A model generated the notes under the pieces. It did no database searches and was not told the DNA's origin. It saw nothing but the letters and a program-made list of their open reading frames with translations. Both the position numbers and the translations under genes were made by a program. From contig JAHBBC010000024.1 in the NCBI GenBank assembly GCA_019915015.1, positions 248,001 through 312,000 of the forward strand: 64,000 nucleotides of DNA. The letters run 5' to 3'. The first letter of the stretch is position 1. Every line of letters begins with the position of its first letter. The DNA comes from Auriscalpium vulgare (lineage: Eukaryota > Basidiomycota > Agaricomycetes > Russulales > Auriscalpiaceae). This document shows positions 1,921 through 64,000 of this stretch, piece after piece.

Positions 1921-3545
1921 TCAAGCAAGGGTGGCAAAGCCGATCTGCTGGTTGCCGACGTCGAACTTGGTGTAAACGTTTTGCAGGAACACGTCACCGA
2001 GGATCCAGAATTCTGCAGGACACGGGTACATGAGCAGCTGCGGGAGAAATGCGCGCGTGAAAGGGCTCACCGCTGCTAATGTCGTCGTCCGCAGCAGCGC
2101 CGCCGACGCAAGTGGACGAGCCATCTGAGACGGGGCCGAGGTTGAAGGTGCTGGGGTCGATGGTGAACGCAGTGCCGCCGAGTGTCACCGAGAGCGGCGT
2201 GTTGAACGAGCACGGGACTGTGCACGTGGGCGGCGTCAGAGAAAGTGCGGCGCTGCTACGAGGGAAGAATACGTACTGCTGTAGAGGCCGGTTCCGAGAG
2301 AGTCGTCCTCTTTCGCGCCGCTGATCTGCGCGTAGAGCGCCGCGATACCGGTGGAGGAGCCGATGAGCTGTGTAGTGCCGGTGTCGATGATGGCCGCGGT
2401 GCTGTCGACGACCTGCTGGCCGTTGACAGAGATGCTGTCGAAGGTCGTCTGCCAGTACGCCTGCGCAGCCACAGAATCAGCATCAGCATCAGGATCGCAA
2501 TCGCAATCGCGTGGAGAAAAACTGACCGCCGTGGAGACGTCAACGGTGGTGAAGTCGCCGGAGTACAGCTGGTCGTTGACGCCGCCGATAAACAGCTCAG
2601 AGCCGGACGACGCAAAGTAAAAGCCGAATGACTCGTCCGCTACCTTGCCCGCCGCGATGAGCGACTGGAAGAGCGGGTTGGCATTGTAGTCCGAGAGCGA
2701 CTCGAACGCCATGCCGAGCAGCCCATCCGCAGGGAACTGGGAGCTCTCGAAGCCCGTAGAGTAGGTCTTCGCGGAGCCGAGGGTCTGACCGGTGGCCTGC
2801 AGCAGGAAACATTGCGTCAGATAAATTCTCAGCAAGGAAAGAAGTGCGATCGTACGGTCAAGCCGGCGATGGACACGGTGTCGGTATACTGCTCGCCAGT
2901 GACGGAGGATCCATCGCCGTACTTCAGCGTGAACGTCTTCTTGATGTCCTTGGAGGTGGAGCTCTTGCTGGGGGTGTACAGCGTGTGTCCGGAGCAAGTC
3001 GACCCGCAGGTCGAGCCGGGCAAGAACAGATCGCTGCTGCCTGTGTCGAAGTCGACTAGATGTGCAAACACCGTATGTCAGCTAGGCCGCTTCCGCGAGT
3101 ATGACAAATAGGGAAAAACGGACCCGTGTACTGCTTAGCCGGAGTGCCAACCGAGATAGTGCCGTACCAGAGCTGGGCGTCGTCGTCGGTCAGAGAATCG
3201 GCACCCGACGTGGCACGCTTCTTGAGGTTGCGCGCCGAGGGGTGGACCTTGCCGGTGTTGCGCTCGTAGATCTCGAAGCCACGGTTGATCTTGCTATTTA
3301 TAAAGCAAGACGGTCATCAGCGCTAGCACAGAATGAAGGAACCTGTGAAAGTGCACTCACGCGACAGAGCTGCGCACTTTCCTCTGGAGGACCTCAGCGT
3401 TGACGGACCCATCGGCGCGGTGCAGGGTGGAGCGCTTGGCGATGGGGATGGCGACGCCGCTGCGTGCCGACGGCGTCTCCGCGATGGGGACGGCCGTGGC
3501 CAGGAAGGGGAGCGCAGCGAGGATGAAGGCGGCGGAGAAGTACAT
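1921..3545 (-). CDS. Secreted pepsin-like aspartic protease (A1 family)
   Basis: Seven exons: 3545..3361, 3293..3124, 3055..2856, 2796..2527, 2460..2277, 2217..2071, 2012..1921. They total 1248 nt and encode 415 aa. The start is the ATG opening MYFSAAFILAALPFLATAVP, a typical signal peptide, followed by a basic propeptide. The mature part contains the first catalytic loop (VDFDTGSSDLFLPG, Asp near residue 121), the flap YGDGSS, and the second loop (AAIIDTGTTQ, near residue 300), and ends with FWILGDVFLQNVYTKFD. This order and length are normal for basidiomycete polyporopepsin-type enzymes, which hydrolyse peptide bonds extracellularly at acid pH. Intron 2526..2461 (66 nt) has no stop and is in frame, so a frame-only reading adds a spurious Asp-rich insert. 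A TATA box lies about 82 nt upstream of the ATG. Confidence 0.93.
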
Positions 3546-5356: not shown

Positions 5357-5969
5357 TTAGTCGAGCTCATCGAACGAGCGAGACGCCAAGATCAGGGAAG
5401 CGAGGGCTTGCTCTGGGGTGACGTTGCGACGAGTCGCGGAGGCGGTGTCCCGGGCATGGACGGCGGCGTTTGCGGCTGCGCCCGAATTGTTGATAATGCT
5501 CTGGAAAGCATTCGCGAACTCGTCCAGGTCGAAGCGTTCCTCGAGCTCGCGCCTACTGTAGACGAAGCGTCAGCACAGCTGGCACTACCGTGCACACGTC
5601 AACGCACCTTGACGGCGCGGCAGCGGCGGCGGCGTTTGCGGCAGCGATCAGATTGTTGTTGATGGCCTGAAAAGCATTCGCAAACTCGTCCGGGTTGAAG
5701 CGCTCCGCAAGCTCGCGCTTGCTGTAGACGGAACGTCAGCACTACTGGAACTACGGCGCACACGTCAACCAACGCACCTGGACGGCGCGACGCTCGTCGG
5801 CGCCAGGATCAGGGAAGCACGGGCCTGATCTGGGGTGACGTCGCGACGGGTCGCGGGGGCGGTTGCCCGGGCATGTACAGCGGCATTTGCGGCAGCAACC
5901 GAATTGTTGATAATGCTCTGGAAGGCATCCGCAAACTCGTCCGGGTTGAAACGCTCGTCGAGCTCGCGC
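5357..5969 (-). pseudogene. Family 1 repeat-protein gene, 5'-truncated
   Basis: Three symmetric phase-2 exons can be spliced: 5969..5778 (64 codons), 5721..5608 (38 codons) and 5552..5357 (TAA). Each begins with a basic pair plus EL[DEA]ERF[ND][PL]DEFA and continues AFQ.I.NN...AAANAA. The dibasics (KR, RR) straddle the splice junctions as in the intact paralogue at 44,883. The last exon ends TRRNVTPEQALASLILASRS then FDELD, the family 1 C-terminus. The repeat unit differs from that of the other members (DEFANAFQ instead of SLSDLGGDL). No signal-peptide exon and no family leader lie upstream; the nearest ATG (6073) opens a non-hydrophobic peptide. I therefore call it a truncated copy, though an unrecognised first exon is possible. 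Confidence 0.65.
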
Positions 5970-6276
5970 CTGCAGGCAAACGGTCAGCGCAGCTGTCTGG
6001 CAATAAGTAGATAGGAGTGGCCTACTGGAGAGGAGCACGCCCTCGTCGCCGTATTCTCAATCTTGCTGTCCATGGATTATGTCCAGGGCACGAGACAACA
6101 CATAAAAAATAATACTCGACGTATGAGCGCTATAGACCCGCAACTCCGATACGATTGTCAACCTTCGATTGAACTTATTGAAGAACATGATACGAGAGCC
6201 TCCGCAATGAAGCACTCAGATTTAGCACGTATGTATGCAACGAAAGATGAACGTACAGAGGGCCATTGCTACTTCT

Positions 6277-9692: not shown

Positions 9693-10682
9693 TTAAGTCT
9701 TGACAGTAGCCTATACAACAACATATATCAGATACAGAGACTGAAGGCACTGAAATTCCCGCGTACCTGTTGGAGCGTGACAGCGGTCTGTGCGAGGAGC
9801 CGGCCGTGGATAGTAGCTCCCGTCTGCAGGACGATCGACGTTTCGCCGAGGATGACGCCTTCGAAGTGCGAGCCGACGCCGGCGGTCACCGCGCCCGTCA
9901 CGACCCACACAATATTCTTCGCCCGCGCGCCGCGGGAGAGTACGATCTTCTTCGCTGTTGCGACGGTCAGCGTCCCGGAGATCTGGAAGATCCAGGCTAT
10001 AACGCGTCAACTGTCCGCGTATTGGGAGCATTGGGGAGGGTGACTCACTGTCCGTGGCACTGCCCGCGATGGTGATATCGGTCGCGATGTTGACCCCACT
10101 CGACCACTTGTACAGCCCCGGGGCCAGAACGAGTCCACCTATCGAGCCTGTCGGATGCCTGAGAACAATGCGCAGCACCACAACATAATTGCACAGACCG
10201 GCCGCAAGATCGGTGAAATCCGGGTTCGCGCGGCCAATGGCGTCAATGACGGCCGTGCTCAGGTCGCCGATGGCGGTGGTGAGCGTTGCCGGCGTGGGCG
10301 CGACATACGACGCGCCGAAGAGCTTCCCGGTAACTTGGTTCGAGGTCGAGAATTGACCGCTCGAATCGAGAGTGAGCGCGAAGCCGGTGAGGGCGGTGGC
10401 CGCAATCGGGCTCACCGCCACTTGGCCAGCTGGAGAGAACGTCAGAGATGTGGAAAATTTGAAGGAATTTGAACATACTGATGACGGACGGGGGGACGGT
10501 CGATACTCCACTTTTAGCGAGGATCACGTAGTTGCCGGCGGTGCGCAGTTTGACGGGGGCAGGGCCGATGGCAAGGACGCTGGCAAGAGCAGCCTGCTCG
10601 CGGCCTGGGTCAGAGTAGAAAAATAGGGAGGATGCACGCTGGGAGGTACCAAAAAGGAGACGGTGAAAAGGCTCGAGAACAT
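9693..10682 (-). CDS. Ice-binding (antifreeze) protein, DUF3494 family
   Basis: Exons 10682..10650, 10593..10479, 10429..10199, 10138..10049, 9996..9767, 9710..9693 give 717 nt and 238 aa. The first exon plus the start of exon 2 form a signal peptide (MFSSLFTVSFLAALASVLA); the acceptor was chosen because it alone gives this peptide in frame. The rest is a nearly complete DUF3494 domain: TAGNYVILAKSGVSTVPPS, GVSPIAATALTGF-like, GLVLAPGLYKWSSGV, TWIFQISGTLTVA and AKNIVWVVTGAVTAGVG, ending AQTAVTLQQATVKT. Fungal members such as the Typhula antifreeze proteins are secreted beta-solenoids that bind ice planes and inhibit recrystallisation. The length matches the family. The last coding exon is only 18 nt. 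A second, frameshifted copy lies at 20,745-21,731. Confidence 0.93.
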
Positions 10683-44652: not shown

Positions 44653-44791
44653 TATAAAGGCACCCTCGCATCCGCCGATATTCTTCAGCTCCTGCTCACT
44701 TCGTTCATCACATTTACTATTAGGCACTGGTTGGTGAGTACTTCGCATCTTCACCGTGTACGCACGATGCTAACTTCGCCTTCTGTACTAG
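44653..44791 (+). promoter_or_regulatory. Family 1 promoter and leader with 5'-UTR intron
   Basis: TATAAAG (44,653-44,659), then GGCACTGGTTG|GTGAGTA. The UTR intron is 44,734-44,791, ending TGTACTAG, followed by CCTTTATTTG. The layout is the same as at 52,037 and 62,767. Confidence 0.7.
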
Positions 44792-44882: not shown

Positions 44883-46558
44883 ATGCATTCCAACGTCGCC
44901 CTCATTGCCCTCGTCGCGGCTGCTTCCTCCGCGGTCGCTGCGCCTCTCCAGTACGCCCTCCCATGTACTCGCTCTATCCATTGTCACTGACGCCTCGGCG
45001 CTTTCCCAGCGACAATCAGCTCCGTGCCCTCGAGCGCGAGCTCGCAGCACGCGAGCCTCTGAGCCTTGGTGGCCTCGGTGGTGACCTCGGCTCCCTGTTC
45101 GAGGGCGAGGTCGGCACCGGCCTCAAGGCCCTCGGCACCGGTATCCTCGGTGGTGCCGCCGTCCCCCTCCTGAACAAAGTCTTCGGCGGCGGATCCCAGA
45201 CTTCGGCCGCCCCTGCGCCCACGGCCACGGCCACGGCCACGCGCCGCGAGGTTCTCAGCGCTCGCGACATGGAGCTCCTCGGCCGCAACATTCTCGGGAG
45301 CCTCCTCGGCGCGACTGAGGACTCGCTCGGCACTGTACTCAAGACCAGTGCGGCGGGCGGTCTTGCCGCCGGCGCAGTCGCCGGGATTGGCGGGGAGATT
45401 GAGAAGCTTTTCGGCGGTGGCTCCAGCTCGAGCGCCGCCCCCGCCCAGGCCACAGCCGCATCCAGGTATGTGGACATTTGTACGATCGCGTAGGTGAGGA
45501 ACAACTTTGCTGACCATGAGTCTGCAGGCGTGAGCTTGAGGAGCGCTTCAGCTTGTCCGACCTTGGGGGCGACTTGGAGAGCATCCTCGGCAGTCTCTTT
45601 GGCGGGTCGGGCTCTGCCGCCGCCCCTGCCCAGGCCACCGCCGCAGCCGCATCCAGGTGCGTTGACCATTGCATTGCAGTGTCGTGTAGAATAGCTGTTC
45701 TGATGCTTCCTCTATAGCAGGCGCGAGCTTGAGGAGCGATTCAGCCTGTCCGACCTAGGAGGCGACTTGGAGAGTATCCTCGGCAGTCTTTTCGGTGGGT
45801 CGGGCTCTGCCGCCACCCCTGCCGCCACCCCGGCCACGGCCACGGCCGCCTCCAGGTGTGTTGAAATTTGCACGATCGTATGGTGAGAAACAGCTTTGCT
45901 GACCGTTCGTCTACAGGCGCGAGCTCGAGGAGCGCTTCAGCCTGTCCAGCCTCGCCGGCCTCGGGGGCGACTTGGAGAAAATCCTCGGCGGCCTTTTCGG
46001 CGGGTCGGGCTCTGCCGCCCCTGCGCAGACCGCCGCCCCCGCATCCAGGTGCGTTGACGTCTGCAACGTAGCCTCGGCTGTGCTGACGCTTCGTCTATGA
46101 CAGGCGCGAGCTCGAGGAGCGCTTCAGCCTGTCCGACCTCGGAGGCGACTTGGAGAGCATCCTCGGCAGTCTCTTCGGCGGGTCGGGCTCTGCCGCCGCC
46201 CCTGCCCAGGCCACCGCCGCAACATCCAGGTGCGTCGACCGTTCCCACCATAGTGTCGGCGTGGAACAGCTGTGCTGACGTTTTTTTTTGTAGGCGCGAG
46301 CTTGATGAGCGCTTCAGCCTGGCCGGGATCGCGGATGACCTGGGGCCCATTGAGAAGGGCATCATCGGTACCGTCACCAGCTTGGGCGCGTCGAGCGCTG
46401 CATCCGGCCTCCTCGGCAAGCTGTTCGGTAGCTCGAGTTCTTCGAGCTCTGCCGCCCCAGCTCAGTCCTCCGCCGCCTCGAGTCGCCGCGACGCCACCCC
46501 GGAGCAGGTCCTTGCTTCTCTCCTCCTGGCTTCTCGTTCGTTCGACGAGCTCGACTAA
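44883..46558 (+). CDS. Family 1 secreted repeat precursor with splice-built dibasic sites (436 aa)
   Basis: Seven exons: 44883..44950, 45010..45465, 45528..45656, 45721..45855, 45917..46048, 46104..46229, 46294..46558 (1311 nt). Signal peptide MHSNVALIALVAAASSAVAA. Exon 2 holds AAREPLSLGGLGGDLGSLF and a Gly/Ala-rich hydrophobic part, split by an internal TRREVL. Exons 3-6 (42-45 codons) are near-copies: RELEERFSLSDLGGDLESIL, GSLFGGSGSA, Ala/Pro/Thr-rich spacer, SR. Exon 7 has a variant repeat, an SRRD site, TPEQVLASLLLASRSFDELD. Each junction is TCCAG|intron|GCGCGAG, so Ser-Arg-Arg-Glu arises only after splicing. All introns are phase 2. Cleavage after each RR, as by Kex2, would give about eight peptides. 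Function unknown; the hydrophobic Gly-rich peptides could be surface-active. Confidence 0.85.
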
Positions 46559-47407: not shown

Positions 47408-48843
47408 ATGGCTGAAGGTCCTGTTGAGCAGCTCCGAGCGCCAGGTAAGTACCCATGAGCCCTCTTTCTCGATAAACAGTCTAACAAATCCCTCGCTTTC
47501 GAGGAATCGCGGAACAATGGTTTACCATCTGTCATGATATTGGCTTCTATTGGTCTGTTGGGATGACGGGAAGATACCACTTGCCCACGTCGTCCCCCTT
47601 CGACTCGGCGATTCTATTCGGCGCTTTGCAAACTCTCATATCGAGACACGCGCCTCTAGGCGTCTCCCTAGTTGGGGAGAACACTGCCGCTGCGCATTTC
47701 GTGCGCCTCCAGCGCATTGATCTTAGAGAAGTCGTCGAGTTCGTCCGGGTGAAAGGGCTCTCCGAGCGCGACGATGTTCTCGGCGAAATAACCAGCAAGC
47801 GGCACTCTGGGCCTTTCAACGACTTGGGAAAGCTCCCGCTCTGGCGTTTGTACGTGGTCCTGCCTCCGGAGGAGGAGATAGCCGACTCTGGGATCGACAT
47901 AGCCCTTTTCCTGCACCACGGTGTCGCCGACGGCGCCAGTGCCCTCATTTTCCACCGGGATCTTCTCGCGGCTCTCAATGATCCTTCGGCACCCTCGTCT
48001 TCACCCAACATTAATGTGCCTCGACTTCCTCTCCCTGCGCCGCTCGAGGCCCAGCTTTCACTCTCGCATTCATGGTGGATCATCGTTCGCGCGCTTTACC
48101 AAGACATATTCCCCCCCTCGACCAAAGGGCTATGGACAGGCGGAATTGTTACGAATACGCCTGCATTGCGAACCCACCACATCCCTCTCATATTCCCTCC
48201 ATCCACGCTCTCCGCCCTCTTGTCCACGTGCCGCAAGAATGGGACTACGGTGACCGCAGTCGCAGAGACTGCGATTGCGAAGGCCCTCTTCGGCGCACTG
48301 CCAGCGGACGGCAACGCCGACAAGCTCGCTTGCTCGGTTCCGATCAACCTCCGCCGGTTTATCCCTGGTTCGGACTCAGTTATGGGCGATCTAGTCACTG
48401 CAGAAGAACACCACTTTGCCCGAGTCGAAGCAGACGACTCGTGGGCCGTTGCGCGGCGCATCAAGAAGGAGTTGGTCAAGAAGGTCGCCGCGGGGGGCAA
48501 GAACCTGAATATCGGGCTCCTGCTCTATGTCTCCAACATGTGCAAGTACTTTACGGGGAAGGTGGGGAAAGCACGGACATCGTCGTTCGAGTCGTCCAAT
48601 GCGGGCGTCATGGACGGCAGGATTGACGCACAGTCGGGTTGGAGGGTTACGCGGCTGGCGATGTCGCAAAGCGGCGCGGTGACGGGGTCTGCAATCGCGT
48701 TCAGCCTGTGCAGTGTGAAGGGCGGGGACATGTCGATTTCGGTCAATTGGCAGGAGGGTGTCGTGGAGCGTGGGTTTGTCGAGAACGTGGTGGAGCTGTT
48801 GCGCGCCGAGATTGACAGCCTGGCCTCATCGTCTGGGACTTAG
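47408..48843 (+). CDS. Alcohol O-acetyltransferase-like protein (AATase family)
   Basis: Two exons, 47408..47444 and 47504..48843, encode 458 aa. The first exon supplies MAEGPVEQLRAP; the second opens GIAEQWFTICHDIGFYWSVG. FLHHGVADGASALIFHRDLL near residue 150 contains the HHxxxDG acyltransfer motif of the condensation/BAHD-like fold, in which the first His is the general base. CSVPINLRRFIP and SSNAGVMDG further on fit the PF07247 alcohol acetyltransferase family, which transfers acetyl from acetyl-CoA to alcohols to give esters. Length is normal for the family. The neighbours (F-box relic, repeat proteins) give no pathway context. The intron (59 nt) is GTAAGT...GAG. Confidence 0.85.
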
Positions 48844-52269: not shown

Positions 52270-53285
52270 ATGCATTCCAACGTCGCCCTCATTGCCCTCA
52301 TCGCCGCCTCGGCTGCCTCCTCCACGGTCGCTGCCCCTCTCCAGTACGCCGCTTGAATGCACCGACGCCACATGGTGTCGCTGACGTTTTTTTCTTCCTT
52401 GGCAGTGACAATCAGGCTCGTGCTTTCGAGCGCGAACTCTCTGCCGCGAGCCTCTGAGCCTCGGTGGCATCGGCGAGGCCCTCGGTGCCGCATTCGAGGG
52501 TGAGATCGGCTCAGGCCTCAAGGACCTTGGAACGGGCATCCTTGGCGGTGCTGCTGTCCCGCTCATCAACAAAGTTCTCGGGGGCAACAAGGACTCCACC
52601 GCGGCCTCGCGCGAGCTCGCCGCCCGCGAGCCTCTGAGCCTCGGTGGCATCGGCGAGGCCCTCGGCTCCGCATTCGAGGGTGAGGTCGGCTCAGGCCTCA
52701 AGGCCCTCGGAACGGGCGTGCTTGGCGGTGCTGCCGTCCCGCTCATCAACAAATTGTTCGGGAGCAAGGACTCCACCGCGGCGTCGCGCCGCGAGATCCT
52801 CGAGGCGTTCGGTGCCCGCGACGAGGAGGAGCTCCTGGCGCGCGGCAACATCCTCGGGAGCCTCCTCGGCGCGACTGAGGACTCCCTCGGCACTGTTCTC
52901 AAGACCAGCGCGGCGGGCGGTCTTGCCGCAGGCGCAGTTGGCGCGATCGGTTCGAAACTTCTCGACTTGTTCAACGGCAACAAGGACTCCTCGCAGTCCA
53001 GGTGCGTTGACCTTTGTGCAGCCGCTTCGGTGTCAGGTTACTGAAGACTTGTATTGCAGGCGCGAGCTCGAAGAGCGCTTTAACCTGGCCGGCATTGCGG
53101 AGAGCCTGGGCCCCATTGAGAAGGGCCTGATCGGCACTGTCGTCGGTTTGGGCGCGTCGAGCGCTGCCTCCGGCGTTCTGGGCAAGATATTCGGCAGCAG
53201 CGACAAGAGCAGCCGCGATGTCACCCCCGAGCAGGTGCTTGCTTCCTTGATCCTGGCCTCTCGCTCGTTCGATGAGCTCGACTAG
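52270..53285 (+). pseudogene. Family 1 repeat-protein gene with an early frameshift
   Basis: Exons 52270..52343, 52406..53001 and 53060..53285 match the family. The signal peptide MHSNVALIALIAASAASSTV is intact. In exon 2, CTCTCTGCCGCGAGCC lacks one C relative to CTCGCTGCCCGCGAGCC of the copy at 62,995, giving a TGA at 52,455-52,457. From there on the correct frame is open to the end: REPLSLGGIGEALG appears twice because of an in-frame 180-bp tandem duplication (52,451 and 52,631), followed by ASRREILEAFGARDEEELLA, and the last exon ends TPEQVLASLILASRSFDELD. Only one ELEERF exon is present. Loss is recent, or it is a sequencing error. Confidence 0.75.
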
Positions 53286-54420: not shown

Positions 54421-55647
54421 CGATGTCGCGGCCTGTGTCGCAGCCCAGTCGCGATGCTATGCAGCTGACGTGTGTGGTGGGGTAGTATGAGCACATGAAG
54501 CAGTAGCCATTGGCTATAGATTGTTATTGACTACGACATCCATAGATGCCTGCAGGATGTCACCTAATAATAGTACTGCGCCCGGTTCAGTTGGTCCATA
54601 TCTCGGGTAGAAGGCGCTGTTCAGATTGAAGCTGTAAGTATACGTGCAGGGTAGCCCGCAAGGACGGCAGCGCGCTCGACCCCGAGGAGCGCCGTGCACT
54701 GTGCACGTGTAGATTGACACCGGTTTGTGAACAGCTGTGAACTCATCTTCTACGTGTTCTGCAGAGCCTATGGGAAGCGAAGGGGGCGATGCGGTCAGTA
54801 TCGGGGTGAAGACGCGATGAGCGGGACTGCGAGTCTTGCACTCCCCATAAACTACTGCTGGATGTGAAAAAGGGCATCCTTGGGGCGTCCAGGACATATC
54901 CCAGGTGAGCAATCGTGGAGCTGAAGAGGCAAATCAGAGACCAGGACGCGGACATAACAATGGACGTATCTAGAGCATCCTACGTCACCTTCCAACTGCT
55001 CGTTATCCTGAACCAGCACCGCCACTTTCCTCGCCGCGAAGGCGGGCCTCCAACCCTCCCTCCTTCGCATGCCGTTCCTACTGATGCCAGTTAGATGGCG
55101 CATTCGAGATCTTCTCGTGTTGGCTCAACGTCACGACATCGGCATTCGTCTGCAGCGCGCGTCCTTCTCCAATGCGATCGCGGCCGCCTCTCCAGGACCC
55201 TCCCCCGCCGCAAGTCCGTGCGTGGGGCCTCCTCGTGCAAAGGGCCCGTGGTGCCAGCACCATCCGGCGCAATGAAGAGTCGTGCGAGGCAATTGCAAAT
55301 GAGTCGGCAAGTGCATGGTGCTCGGGGAGGGGCCGGCGGCGGAGGCAAATGTGGACGCAGCAGAGGCGGATGTCGAGCGAGGTGACGCTGTCAGTCACCG
55401 TCTCTGGCGTCCAAGTGGCGTCTCTGGATGTCGAAGCGGAGGAGGAGGTGGGCACGGAGGCGGACAATAGTGCCTGCGATACATATCCAGCGGATGCGAC
55501 CTGCAGCGCATGATCTCATCCCTATAAAACGCAATAGATAGAAACCGACAGCGGACGCAAGTCTCTGGGACGCACCTGATGTCCCAGAACCTCATCAGAT
55601 ACGCCTAAGGCCTCCGCCGCCACCTCGATGAGGCTCTATTGCCGTTT
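54421..55647. other. Gene-poor stretch
   Basis: Possible coding-like minus-strand peptides occur at 54,660-54,520 (FYPRYGPTEPGAVLLLGDIL) and 55,100-54,900, but no gene could be assembled. Confidence 0.3.
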
Positions 55648-55654
55648 GGCGTCA
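55648..55654. repeat. Putative target-site duplication, left copy
   Basis: GGCGTCA; the identical heptamer lies at 57,293-57,299, just outside the other end of the inverted repeat. Confidence 0.55.
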
Positions 55655-57292
55655 GAGGGACTTCAGTAGCGTGCCAGACCAGTCGGGGCTGGTATGTGCA
55701 GCCCGACCGGTCCTGGCGGGATCCCGCCCGTACCGCGCGGACTCAGCGCGCCCAGCGATGCTGGAGCAGCTGGAGCCCGTGCGCAGCGAGGGAGACCGCC
55801 AGGACCGGGCGGATGCCGCCCGGTCTGTGCGCCGCTCGGGAGCCCCGCAACCATCGCCGCCCGCCGCCGTCGGTGCGCCTGGTCTGTGCGGGCCCGCCTC
55901 GTCCACGCGCGTGCCCCTTGCCGCCCTCACCGCGCGCCCCTCGCCGCCTGCACTGCGCGCCCCTTGTCGCCCTCGCTGCGCGCCCCTTGTCGCCCTCGCT
56001 GCGCGCCCCTGCTCGTCGCCCGCACCGCGCACCCCTCGTCGCCCGCACCGCCCGCCCCCGCTCGTCGCCCGCACCGCGCGCCCCTGCTCGTCTGAGTCGC
56101 CCTCGCTGCGCGCCTCGCGCTGCGAACGTTGTCGCCCTTGCCGCACGCCCCTCGTCGCCGTCGTCGTGTTGTCGTCGTGCGCCCCTGCTCCTCGCCTGCG
56201 TCGCGTCGCCTGCTGCATGCGCAGCGTCCTGGCTGCACGTCCATGTGCGCTGCCCTCGCTGCGTGTCGTCCTTGCTGCGTGTTGGCCTGGCTGCGCGTCG
56301 TTCTTGTCGCGCGCCCCTGCACGCCGTCCTCCCTGCGCAGCCAGGAGGCACCTGGTGTGGCGCCATACAAGGCTGCACAGGCACGTCTCAACAGAAAGTG
56401 GCGTGCGGGCGTGCGGGCGTGCTGGCGTGCGGGCGTGCGGGCGTGCGGGCGTGCGGGCGTGCGGGCGTGCGGGCGTGCGGGCGTGCGGGCGCGGAAACAA
56501 GGCAGGAGTGCCTGCATTGGCAAGTGAAGCCCAATTCCCACGATGTGCTGTCAACAAAACCACGTGACCGAGGGGCCGCGTGGCAGGTTCAACGCGGCGC
56601 AAGGCCACTTTCTCCCCACTACCACCTGCCCCCAACCACCACACCGTCCCAACACCCCCGCACTCTCACCATCATCTCGAAACCGACCGCCAGGTGCGTA
56701 CGACGAGGCGGCAACGAGGGGCGGCGCGCTGCGAGGTCCAGGCGACGGCCCCGGCGTGCAGCGAGGGCGAGGATGTGCGCAATGACTCATGAGGTCGACA
56801 ATTGCGCGCAGCGAGGGCCACGCATAGGCGTGCGGGCAACGAAGGGCGCGCGACGAGGACCGCGACAAGCGAACAGAGGCGACGAAGGCGCGCAGGGAAG
56901 GCGACGAGCAGGGGCGCGCGGTGCGGGCGACGAGGGGTGCGCGGTGCGGGCGACGAGCAGGGGCGCGCGGTGCAGGCGACAAGGGGCGCTCAGTGCAGGC
57001 GGCGAGGGGCGCGCGGTGAGGGCGGCAAGGGGCACGCGCGTGGACGAGGCGGGCCCGCACAGACCAGGCGCACCGATGGCGGCGGGCGGCAATGGTTGCG
57101 GGGCTCCCGAGCGGCGCACAGACCGGGCGGCATCCGCCCGGTCCTGGCGGTCTCCCTCGCTGCGCACGGGCTCCAGCTGCTCCAGCATCGCTGGGCGCGC
57201 TGAGTCCGCGCGGTACGGGCGGGATCCGCGCCATGACCGGGCGGGCTGCACATACGAGCCCCGCCCGGTCCGGGACGCAACTGAAGTAGTAC
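55655..57292. mobile_element. Fold-back element with long terminal inverted repeats
   Basis: 55,660 to about 56,100 is an almost perfect reverse complement of 57,287 to about 56,870. Both inward readings pass through ACTTCAGT, GTATGTGCAGCCCG, GATCCCGCCCGTACCGCGCG, GGAGCCCCGCAACCAT and CGTCCACGCGCGTGCCCCTT. The inner parts of the repeats are made of imperfect 18-24-bp GC-rich units (CGCGCCCCTCGTCGCCCGCA). A GGCGTCA duplication flanks it. There is no transposase. Long terminal repeats of 400 bp or more with a short unique core resemble Mutator-like or fold-back non-autonomous elements. The long Arg/Ala-rich frame across it is a composition artefact. Confidence 0.75.
56401..56491. repeat. 8-bp minisatellite (GTGCGGGC)n
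   Basis: About eleven tandem copies of GTGCGGGC, with one variant unit (GTGCTGGC), in the centre of the fold-back element. Confidence 0.9.
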
Positions 57293-57299
57293 GGCGTCA
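57293..57299. repeat. Putative target-site duplication, right copy
   Basis: GGCGTCA, partner of 55,648-55,654. Confidence 0.55.
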
Positions 57300-59136
57300 A
57301 GGCTGCCGTGGCACCTTGAATGTCAATCTCGCCCAGAAGTTCATCATAGGGTCAGTCTGAGTATGCTGAGGCAACATGCTGAGGCGATGAGGTTGGATAC
57401 AAGAAATAGATTTTTGTGCGCAAGGCCCCGACTCGACGCGGTACTTACTTGTTTGGCTTGCCAAACAAAGAGGCCTCCAACGCCACCCATAGCGCTCAGC
57501 ATGGTCACAGCCTGCAGTCGTTATCCGTTAACAAGCACATAGACTTTTCCTCCGTCCTCCCATTGAGACGCAAGGGCTGCCCAGACGCTGGCTGTGCAGA
57601 GCACTGAGGCGCTTACATCGGAGGCAAACGCATCGTGCCTACTGTCACCGCATATCGCATACGAACTCGAAGCGCCGTGGATGTCTGGCCCAGGCAACAG
57701 GCTGTTTCCGTGTACGTGCTCTGCAGCCTGAACACTTCCCTACTCCGCGCACACTCGCGGAGCGCGGTGACGATGTCCTACGACGGATACCGGGCGAAAT
57801 CACTGCGTTCAGGGCCCGGATACTCCCGCAATGGGCCAATTAAGCAACAAAAACGCGAGCTTGCTTTATTACCTCTTCACAATCGGCAACTCCCTTCTGC
57901 ATCAAGTTGCAGCATTAATTCCTGGCACTGTACTGGGTGTACAAGGTATAAGTATTGTGCAGCGCCCGCGCCTTTCGGCAGATGCCGGTCTGTTCGGCAC
58001 TGCGGCATTGCTGCGGCACCGCCACCCAGGTGCCTGGAACTTTCCAGGTGGCTTCATCCGTGCCCAAGAGCCACTTCATATGCTTTTATGAGGCTACCTA
58101 AGTACACTGGAAGGCTTGCAGACTGCTTGCAGTCGCTGTGTCCGGGAGCGGACCGACGGAGCCGATGGCCGGTGATAGCCGAGTCCAGCCGGCCGCATCA
58201 AAAACGAACCTCGGTCGTCCCGTGCACGACAGATACTACCCTAAAAATATTTTCATCCCCCTGCACATTCGCGACTTGTATTTAATTTCTTCGGCATTCA
58301 GTGTGCGACTCGGACTACCACTTCCCGGCTGTTTTATATCAAATCAGCGTTACAACCAGCCGGAGCCTGAGGTGGTCCTGGTTCGTCACCAGCTTGACTT
58401 AGACTTGTACGACTTGTACGGAACTCACACACAGTGGCACGTCTAGAGCAAGAAAATTGCCCCAATACCTCCTTGCTGAGACGCAGCGCGATCTCCTCGA
58501 AGACCTCCTGTTGTCCCGGGACCCCCTCGACCCCCGCGTTCAGAATGATTCGCCTCCGACCTCATCCTCATCCGTGCCCGGACCAGCAAGAGTCGGTCTA
58601 ATGGCACGCATCCAGAACAATGACCCAATTGTTGTTTCTTCACCTTCGTCAAGACTGTGGGAGGATCTGCACGATTCCTTCGAGCTGCGGGTGAGCCAAC
58701 GAAGCGACTGGCGCCTCTTCTTCAATATCGTCTTGCGACTTGGCATTCACAGACCTCCTGCCAAATCCCTCTTGTTTGCAAGTTGCTTGGACGCCATGTA
58801 GATCGCGCGCAGAGTGGACTCTTCTACCGCGTCGACGTCGGCGACGAGAACCGAATTGAGACTCACTCCGGGTGTTTAGTACCTAAAGTCATACTTTGGG
58901 GGCTATTGGTCCGCCAGTGTGGATCGATGGATCGCCGATGGCACACGGAGCGACTTCATCGTTCACCGCTTTTCCAATTCGTTCATAGCGAGCGTTCATT
59001 CAAAAGGGGAACTTTTCAGTAAGAGCCTAGTGATACCCTGCCGTCTTTCCGCACATTCTGATAGTTAGGCGGACTCCAGTGTGGGGACAGTGGGGTCCTG
59101 TAGTTGAACTTGTTCTGAAAGGCGTCCTTACCAGAA
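57300..59136. other. Intergenic; one unassigned 114-codon frame
   Basis: The frame 58,457-58,801 (+), MPQYLLAETQRDLLEDLLLS..., has a polar Ser/Pro-rich middle and LWEDLHDSFEL. It is moderately protein-like, but no family, promoter or introns were identified. Nothing else is supported. Confidence 0.3.
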
Positions 59137-60723
59137 ATGGCGGTACGTTGCTGTGATGTTCCCGCAATTCGTCTCTGACCAAGTTAATGCACTGTCCTGT
59201 CGATCATACAGGACCTTCCGGTGGAGACGCTGCGCGAAATCTTCCAATACCTCCCTCTCTTCTCGCGTGAAGCCCTTGTGCCGAATAACGAATCTGTTCC
59301 TCCGGAAGTCTGGGTTCCTCCTCCTTGGCGTCCATCTGGGGTCTCAATCTACCAGGTCTGCCGGCGCTGGCGCGACATCGTGGGGAATTTCCCGGAACTC
59401 TGGACGACCATCCCCTTGCGCAGCGCAGAGTGGGCCAAGCTCGCGCTCGAACGTTCCGGTGACAAACCGATCTCCATCTACATCGATCTCGGTCTTATTC
59501 GCTCACCGACTTATCTCTCGGTCGCTTCCGACACGATACCACACATGGTCCGCGCCCGCGACATCTCGCTGTCTGCTGTGAGCCATCCCCCATTCCCATC
59601 GAACGGGCAAGAGTGGAGTCATTTTGTATGGCAAGTCGTGGTCAAGTCATTAGAGCAACACCGCGCGCCATTATTGGAGTCGTTCGAGCTGCGGGACTTC
59701 GATGGTTGGTGCCTCCCCAAAGGGATATTCCAGGGCTCCGTCCCGCCGCGGCTTCGCGAACTGCGCCTAAACTGCTGTCTGCACCCTACGTCCTCCTTAC
59801 TGAATGCGCCTCTCACCGTCTTCGACATGAGCACCAATTCTATTCGTTTGGACGACGACGAAGTCGAAGTCGAAGACGAAGACGAAGACGAAGACGAGGG
59901 CCTCCAACACGCTTACGTTCATCTGTCGAATGCGCTCGAGACCTTCTCCAACCTGCGAGAGCTATCCCTTTGCGACATGCTCAATGAACCTGATGTCTGG
60001 ACCAAGGAACAACACGCCATCCATTTCCCCCGCCTCGAGGTGCTCACACTGAGCGGCCCCAATTACATTGTCAATCACACGCTCTCCCTCCTCTCAGTGC
60101 CAGCCACCGTCGACTTGCGATTGGTTTTACTCGCGGCCATAGCCGAACAAACGATGGTGGGGTCCCCGGCCGTGAAGCTGCCCTCGGATATCCACGCTTT
60201 CTGGAGCATGATGGCGGCTCACGGGCAGAACCTTGCCACTGCCCAGCTGGCATTCCGGCACCTCCGTATTCGCAATGTCAGCGAATGGCCCACGAGTCAC
60301 TGGTGGGCCGCGTCTCGCAATAGGGATACCAAAGACCTGGTCATCACCGCGTCCAACCCTGGAGCCCCCGGCACCAAGAACTCGGGTTTCTCGCCTCGCA
60401 TCCATGTGCAGTTCATGCCAGTCCCACTGGGACCCGAAGCACGTTTCGCCACGTTTCCCGAGATTCTAGCATTCCTGTCTGTGTTCCCTGGCATCAAGAA
60501 CGTGGAGGAAGTGGAATTTGTCGGCGTCGATGACGTTCCCTGGACACTCGAGGAAGTCCCTGACGCGAAGGCCGCTGCGCTTGCAATGAAAGAGCGCATC
60601 CCGAGTAGCAGTCATGTTCTCTCGCGCGACGCGCCGCTGTGGGAGGACGTACGGCGTGCCGTTTTGGCGAATGAGGCTTTGAATCCGTCGTCGGTATTTA
60701 TCGTGGCATCGGTCGATTTTTGA
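59137..60723 (+). CDS. F-box protein (505 aa)
   Basis: Exon 1 is a 6-nt coding microexon (ATGGCG, 59137..59142) with donor GTACGT. Exon 2 is 59212..60723. The joined start is MADLPVETLREIFQYLPLFS, a clear F-box, followed by the fungal-typical VSIYQVCRRWRDIVGNFPEL then W. The middle carries an acidic run (EVEVEDEDEDEDEG near residues 217-230), and the C-terminal half is leucine-rich without a sharp repeat. F-box proteins link substrates to SCF ubiquitin ligases through Skp1; the substrate is unknown. Such genes are greatly expanded in Agaricomycetes. A relic at 47,094 preserves the same acceptor context (CAG|GA.CTTCCG). Alternatively, translation could start further upstream. Confidence 0.85.
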
Positions 60724-62994: not shown

Positions 62995-64000
62995 ATGCAT
63001 TCTAACGTCGCCCTCATCGCCCTCATCGCCGCCTCGGCTGCCTCCTCCACGGTCGCCGCCCCTATCCAGTACGCCCCTTCAATGCACTGACGCCACAATG
63101 TTTTGCTAACGTTTTTTCCTCTCCTTTCCAGTGACGATCAGGCCCGTGCCTTCGAGCGCGAACTCGCTGCCCGCGAGCCTCTGAGCCTTGGCGGCCTTGG
63201 CTCTGTGTTCGACGGCGAAATCGGCTCAGGCCTCAAGGCCCTCGGAACGGGCCTGCTTGGTGGTGCTGCCGTCCCGGTCATCAACAAATTGTTCGGGAGC
63301 AAGGACAAGTCCTCCACCGCGGCGTCGCGCCGCGAGATCCTCGAGGCGTTCGGCGCCCGTGACGAGGAGGAGCTCCTGAGCCGCAGCATCCTCGGGAGCC
63401 TCCTCGGCGCGACCGAGGACTCCCTCCCCACCGTCCTCAAGACCAGCGCGGCGGGCGGACTTGCCGCCGGCGCGGTCGGCGAGGTCGGCTCAAAGCTTCT
63501 TGACTTGTTCCACAAGAAGAGCTCCGCGTCCAGGTGCGTTGTTTGTCGTGCCGCATCGGTGTGTGCTGATGGCTCCTCTTACAGCCGCGAGCTCGAGGAG
63601 CGCGAGCCTCTGAGCCTTGGCAGCCTCGGCTCTGTGTTCGACGGCGAAATCGGCTCAGGCCTCAAGGCCCTCGGAACGGGCCTGCTCGGCGGTGCTGCCG
63701 TCCCGGTCATCAACAAATTGTTCGGGAGCAAGGACAAGTCCTCCACCGCGGCATCGCGCCGCGAGATCCTCGAGGCGTTCGGCGCCCGCGACGAGGAGGA
63801 GCTCCTGAGCCGCAGCATCCTCGGGAGCCTCCTCGGCGCGACCGAGGACACCCTCCCCACCGTCCTCAAGACCAGCGCGGCAGGCGGCCTTGCCGCGGGC
63901 GCCGTTGGCGAGGTCGGCTCAAAGCTTCTTGACTTGTTCCACAAGAAGAACTCCGCGTCCAGGTGCGTTGTTTGTCGTGCCGCATCCGTCTGCAACGTAT
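62995..64000 (+). CDS. Family 1 secreted repeat protein, cut by the window end
   Basis: Exons 62995..63068, 63132..63533 and 63585..63962 are open, and the gene continues past 64,000. Signal peptide MHSNVALIALIAASAASSTV, then DDQARAFERELAAREPLSL. Exons 2 and 3 are a 429-bp tandem duplication at near identity (FDGEIGSGLKALGTGLLGGA and VINKLFGSKDKSS in both), including the intervening intron; exon 3 starts SSRELEEREPLSL, a fusion of the ELEER repeat start with the REPLSL repeat. Each copy has an internal dibasic TAASRREILEAFG. Introns are phase 2 and end TCCAG|GTGCGTTG. It shows the family enlarging by exon duplication. Confidence 0.8.

Follow-up and report, generated by a model that had tools for sequence, protein, structure and literature searches.

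A probable Kex2-processed repeat precursor of Auriscalpium vulgare with introns inside the codons of its dibasic sites

Results

The window analysed here is a 64,000-nucleotide stretch of Auriscalpium vulgare DNA (contig C24, 248001-312000). On its forward strand, at 44883-46558, lies a gene that we rebuilt in silico from the DNA as a seven-exon model encoding 436 amino acids with no internal stops, which reproduces the seven exons and six phase-2 introns of a preliminary description. Its parts, and the family paralogs in the window, are:

44657..44663, + strand: TATA-like element TATAAAG, upstream of the gene (by eye)
44734..44791, + strand: putative 5' UTR intron, GTGAGT...CTAAC...AG (by eye)
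44883..44950, + strand: exon 1, start codon and signal-peptide-like sequence (rebuilt model; by eye)
44951..45009, + strand: intron 1, phase 2, away from dibasic sites (rebuilt model)
45010..45465, + strand: exon 2, first two long segments and one in-exon RR site (rebuilt model)
45242..45247, + strand: in-exon Arg-Arg site of exon 2, CGC CGC (sequence)
45466..45527, + strand: intron 2, phase 2, splitting the first Arg of RR as AG|G (rebuilt model)
45528..45656, + strand: unit exon 3, 129 nt, 43 codons, ELEERFSLSDLGGDLESILGSLFGG... (rebuilt model)
45657..45720, + strand: intron 3, phase 2, split RR, tandem acceptor ATAG/CAG (rebuilt model)
45721..45855, + strand: unit exon 4, 135 nt, 45 codons (rebuilt model)
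45856..45916, + strand: intron 4, phase 2, split RR (rebuilt model)
45917..46048, + strand: unit exon 5, 132 nt, 44 codons (rebuilt model)
46049..46103, + strand: intron 5, phase 2, split RR (rebuilt model)
46104..46229, + strand: unit exon 6, 126 nt, 42 codons (rebuilt model)
46230..46293, + strand: intron 6, phase 2, split RR (rebuilt model)
46294..46558, + strand: exon 7, last (C-type) unit, in-exon RR, conserved C-terminal tail ...SFDELD, stop (rebuilt model)
46484..46489, + strand: in-exon Arg-Arg site of exon 7, ahead of the tail peptide (sequence)
5357..6073, - strand: family paralog L009, partial model (genome search and gene model)
52270..53285, + strand: family paralog L010, reading frame disrupted close to the 5' end of exon 2 (gene model)
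62995..64000, + strand: family paralog L011, extending past the window end (gene model)

The six introns are 55-64 nt long, all in phase 2 with GT...AG ends, and each carries a CTGAC or CTGAT branch-like element that ends 13-18 nt upstream of the intron end. By eye, the N-terminus MHSNVALIALVAAASSAVAAPL is signal-like, and similar MHS...AAP starts recur in most family models. The protein contains seven Arg-Arg sites, five split by an intron as AG|G and two inside exons. As first described, introns 2-6 interrupt the first Arg of the pair at all five repeat junctions. The uniform letters reported there, TCC-AG followed by G-CGC-GAG, hold at the amino-acid level in every case and at the nucleotide level in four: all five exons end TCC-AG, but exon 3 (45528) resumes G-CGT-GAG. 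The acceptor of intron 3 is doubled, ATAG|CAG|G; the Viterbi gene finder described below used the first and the rebuilt model the second, and either preserves Arg-Arg (S-S-R-R or S-R-R).

Exons 3-6, with 43, 45, 44 and 42 codons, encode nearly the same peptide, bearing out the earlier account. A 21-nt unit word, allowing at most 3 mismatches, occurs nine times in the window, always within family gene models, against a mean of 0.00 in 100 shuffles. The equation of one exon with one peptide has to be restricted to these four of the seven exons, because exons 2 and 7 contain in-exon sites and carry two segments each.

Four family genes lie in a 60-kb part of the window contig. Interspersed with them are open reading frames for an aspartyl protease (2236-3081, -), an ice-binding-like protein (9711-10523, -), an alcohol acetyltransferase-like protein (47485-48843, +) and an F-box protein (59188-60723, +). 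Both strands of 55609-57360 contain long open frames that overlap and have ACGRAGVR-like runs; by eye, this stretch resembles low-complexity tandem-repeat DNA more than a gene. L010 is 98.2% identical over aligned residues to the A. vulgare protein P0001, and its frame break marks either a pseudogene or an assembly error. In L011, both internal junctions build Ser-Arg instead of a dibasic site; its internal introns, 51 and 60 nt, are multiples of three and stop-free, and would code a Cys-rich stretch if read. Stop-free in-frame introns amount to 10 of 63 phase-2 introns, these two included, and we set them aside as coding alternates.

Searching the 51.6-Mb assembly (96 contigs) returned 30 matching stretches at the DNA level and 39 at the protein level, which we grouped into 18 loci, some of them possibly alleles or broken copies. 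The loci were modelled with a purpose-built Viterbi gene finder that gave a bonus for 4-mers from A. vulgare and other homolog proteins. Twelve models were counted. Six loci (L009, L020, L021, L022, L024 and L025) were dropped as partial, broken or poorly supported; this was decided after the models had been inspected, and dropped L022 (score 196) outscores kept L023 (167).

The split-site layout is frequent in the gene's own family, beyond the window gene. Of the 44 internal introns in the 12 models, 37 are phase-2 introns that interrupt the first basic codon of a dibasic pair; this count omits introns close to the signal peptide as well as the tail intron immediately preceding TPEQ, and its members are not independent because the introns are copies of one another. 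A random intron would be expected at a dibasic pair in 0.5% of places. The dropped loci contribute 18 modelled internal introns, none of them split, so the figure for all 18 loci is 37/62. Seven internal introns in the counted models do not split a pair: the two Ser-Arg junctions of L011, two others in L012, one in L023, and one in each of two genes on contig C34, where it sits before Q-R-R. Across introns of all kinds, three doubtful 5' introns included (one in L010, two in L015), 63/64 are in phase 2. Without the 4-mer bonus, 58 of these 64 were reproduced; three of the six lost were split sites (L013, L015 and L018a). In all, 35 of 72 K/R-K/R pairs in the 12 models are uninterrupted by an intron; a split is therefore not needed for a site.

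Of the C34 genes (L018; C34:267500-274000, minus strand), L018a is a cleaner example of the exon-per-peptide layout than the window gene. Nine unit exons of 66-75 nt stand in tandem in it, each encoding one 20-23-aa peptide (for example ALTADQVVALTNFLSSEGNQ) bounded by split K-R or R-R sites, and similarity between its introns 4 and 5 reaches 96%. The adjacent L018b has three such exons.

Relatives in other fungi came from three protein searches, each scoring ~8,000 candidates. A. vulgare belongs to the Russulales. The window protein recovered at least ten homologs (eight from A. vulgare, one each from Artomyces pyxidatus and Bondarzewia mesenterica), a profile at least five more (one each from Artomyces, Gloeopeniophorella, A. 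vulgare, a JGI protein and Rickenella mellea of the Hymenochaetales), and a Rickenella protein at least seven more (Rickenella four, Punctularia two, a JGI protein one). Throughout Auriscalpium, Artomyces, Bondarzewia, Gloeopeniophorella, Rickenella and Punctularia, units end in KR or RR, often behind Ser runs. For five genome loci, an A. vulgare partner protein is 93.5-98.2% identical across the aligned residues; the window gene has no such counterpart among the matches listed, the best reaching 52% identity over 46% of the length. In four of the five pairs, the deposited A. vulgare protein has identical letters at 7/7 split junctions, a match that is partly circular because the gene finder used homolog 4-mers. 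In the fifth, with partial P0006, 0/3 match, and the neighbouring residues differ.

The extreme C-terminus [ND][DE]L[DE] (window gene 46537-46558) is shared by 17/18 models and by 20/22 homologs, a set of five named genera plus two further proteins; the exceptions, P0012 and P0013, are seemingly truncated or misannotated. It is perhaps a sorting or folding tag. Searches for known domains gave little: the window protein matches no Pfam family up to E 10, and with two relatives it matched NCBIfam models only far below cut-off. Pfam matches of P0016 (YitT_membrane) and P0011 (viral lipid-binding), the only two past the curated cut-off among nine relatives, are short with unrelated names, and we regard them as compositional. 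A 17-sequence profile against solved structures returned 21 sequences up to E 1, the best (E 0.0026) being viral matrix proteins, which we judged to be chance. For P0002, structure prediction was poor (pLDDT 50, pTM 0.23), and PHROGs gave two weak unnamed matches only.

We asked how splicing could alter the product. Retention of any of the six window-gene introns brings a stop within that intron, so the proposal that retention would change sites or copy number is not supported: the outcome would be truncation, with no alternative peptides. If any one of exons 2-6 is skipped, the reading frame survives and Arg-Arg is formed again; only copy number therefore alters. Of the two effects once ascribed to exon skipping, a change in copy number could thus occur and a change of sites would not.

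Introns 2-6 are 57-79% alike in ten pairwise comparisons; a shuffle control on one pair (200 shuffles) gave a mean of 50 and a maximum of 58, so one of the ten pairs (57) falls within it. The unit exons are 76-92% alike within the window gene and 61-67% alike to the single exon of this type in L012, a paralog on C27. Because the introns resemble one another and the unit exons are closer within the gene than to L012, we conclude that exon and intron were duplicated together. Differences among the unit exons comprise 46 synonymous and 24 non-synonymous codon changes, summed over six non-independent pairs, with one pair showing the opposite trend (3 synonymous, 7 not).

The junction ahead of the first C-type unit (in L012, the window-type unit), which corresponds to intron 6 of the window gene, is split K/R-R in 10 of 12 models, S-R in one and absent in one; a split intron at this place is thus probably ancestral in this genome's family. 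Split and in-exon pairs differ in first codon: AAG 26, AGG 10 and CGG 1 at the 37 split sites, against CGC 19, CGT 7, AAG 7, CGA 1, CGG 1 and AGG 0 at the 35 in-exon pairs. The 12 coding sequences contain 216 Arg codons, of which 13 are AGG; ten of these AGG codons stand at split sites. L013 has two C-type units within one exon and its A. vulgare ortholog P0002 has three; copy number can therefore probably change without introns as well.

Discussion

The window gene probably encodes a precursor of the secreted, Kex2-processed repeat type (KEP) and belongs to an Agaricomycete family; kexin would release the peptides at the Arg-Arg sites. This upholds the preliminary view, on the strength of the signal-like start (by eye), the four units between Arg-Arg pairs and a kexin locus in the same genome. 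That locus (L019, C4, about 1861-1862 kb) has Peptidase_S8 (PF00082) and P_proprotein (PF01483) exons and was the single one found by an exon-wise search that may miss diverged ones. Kex1 belongs to the S10 carboxypeptidase family, which has 37 matching stretches in the genome (family level only). C. cinerea and other agaricomycetes are reported to have three kex2 genes (PMC9769878). Umemura's definition of a KEP is at least three tandem repeats of 8-100 aa between KR, KK, RK or RR (PMC7329392); the window gene has four units of 42-45 aa. Like described KEPs (PMC6339444, PMC7329392, PMC9769878), it encodes tandem near-identical segments between dibasic sites, and in both cases linear peptides are the likely products.

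In the proposed pathway, the precursor would enter the Golgi, where kexin would cleave after each Arg-Arg and a Kex1-type carboxypeptidase would remove the C-terminal arginines. Yeast alpha-factor is cleaved before Glu. Four copies of a ~40-aa acidic Gly/Ala/Ser-rich peptide, with several longer relatives, would then leave the cell, their most likely target being the cell surface or other organisms. Six family peptides carry net charges between -2 and -5, and their hydrophobic moments do not stand out from those of their own shuffles (p between 0.15 and 0.82); one predicted mature window-gene unit (~40 aa) has a net charge of -5 and amphipathicity not above shuffles. The negative charge and the lack of excess amphipathicity argue against a classical cationic antimicrobial peptide, and we rejected an amphipathic antimicrobial helix. 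The unit peptides may have a wall/surface or a signalling role; a surface-active role is a guess. PMC7329392 describes KEPs as widespread and diverse, and PMC9769878 (Vogt et al.) describes them as mostly of unknown function, demonstrates KEP peptides in Agaricomycetes, reports six kep knockouts without phenotype and suggests biotic interaction; we lean towards that role here.

Two other readings of the protein bear on this assignment. It might be an uncleaved structural or cell-wall repeat protein in which the Arg-Arg pairs are linkers, as the name 'Cell wall protein' on two Rickenella relatives in UniRef would suggest, along with the Ser/Ala-rich spacers, which resemble O-glycosylated wall linkers. 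We consider this unlikely: K-R or R-R pairs recur at unit borders across the family, split or in-exon, the window protein lacks any Pfam match, and PMC9769878 demonstrates KEP-derived peptides in other Agaricomycetes. A precursor of a dikaritin-type cyclic RiPP would share the repeat organization with Kex2 sites (PMC9233826), and is highly improbable here. Tyr, Trp and Cys are all absent from the four unit peptides. An exon-wise search for UstYa (DUF3328; PF11807) gave 14 matches, a lower bound, on C1, C4, C9, C15, C18 and C25; C24 had none of them, and the match closest to a family locus is ~120 kb from it, on C4.

The layout itself is best read as inherited cassette architecture rather than as a site built by splicing. 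Since the bounding introns are all phase 2 and lie inside the cleavage codon, a unit exon forms a self-contained cassette of half site, peptide and half site. With such cassettes, peptide number would change by tandem duplication or by unequal exchange across similar introns, while frame and protease sites stay intact. Against this stands the possibility that AG|G is simply favoured as an intron target and that introns occupy these sites for that alone, with no cassette effect. Eight of nine phase-2 [AC]AG|G sites carry introns, all eight of them dibasic (12 coding sequences, minus the first 69 nt), yet AA|G (Lys) is the form at 26 of the 37 split sites, and a further 129 [AC]AG|G sites that fall in phase 0 or 1 lack introns. 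Such proto-splice targeting may account for a first insertion and not for tandem exon arrays; we hold it to be doubtful as the whole account, and it is compatible with the KEP reading, their probabilities overlapping. Skipping or retention at unit exons might also tune peptide number or switch the precursor off. The unit exons are symmetric and multiples of three, exons 2-6 can be skipped with Arg-Arg rebuilt, each retained intron brings a stop, and beetle periviscerokinin genes, whose coding exons all have phase-1 introns, are alternatively spliced in some species (PMC6585902). The donors, branch-like elements and short lengths nevertheless look constitutive, and by our estimate the 10/63 stop-free in-frame introns are about what length and stop frequency predict, so regulated splicing seems improbable.

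The protein type is a known one, defined by KEP features, and the gene layout appears undescribed for fungi. Words that start with 'intron', 'exon' or 'splic' are absent from the main text of PMC6339444 (Le Marquer 2019) and PMC7329392 (Umemura 2020), and that of PMC9769878 (Vogt 2022) has such a word once, 'intron-less'; these KEP papers accordingly leave exon structure at repeat borders untreated. Umemura's type S-8 (#203) comprises five KEPs from one Rickenella strain (PMC7329392), and our searches returned at least five Rickenella relatives, so the window family may coincide with S-8 and may already be catalogued. Ustilago maydis Rep1, whose 37-aa cleavage products govern properties of the hyphal wall (PMC6339444), resembles the window gene as a cleaved repeat precursor, by description only.

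Searches of a collection of open-licence papers yielded no fungal precedent that we recognised, and PMC7314547, PMC9004410 and PMC3777899 offered nothing decisive. The claim that the layout is undescribed stands for fungi in this sense, but has partial precedents in animals. According to PMC8557429, CCWamide/agatoxin-like genes also place a phase-2 intron inside a basic codon of the cleavage site; they have one such intron, a single mature peptide in the last exon, no tandem array and an unrelated protein. Beetle periviscerokinin (Capa) genes, described in PMC6585902, share repeated same-phase peptide exons whose number varies by species, with alternative splicing in some, and differ in phase 1 introns, animal convertases and an unrelated protein.

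We tentatively propose, at somewhat less than even confidence, that entire exons serve this fungal peptide family as evolutionary cassettes: each duplication or loss, and possibly each splicing choice, would raise or lower the count by one intact-ended peptide. If so, L018a on C34, with its nine unit exons, would illustrate this best. Protein-only surveys miss an exon-per-peptide layout, and gene-prediction errors at such short exons would hide peptide copies. Peptide copies bounded by in-phase introns inside the cut-site codon offer a testable model of how their number can change without frame damage.
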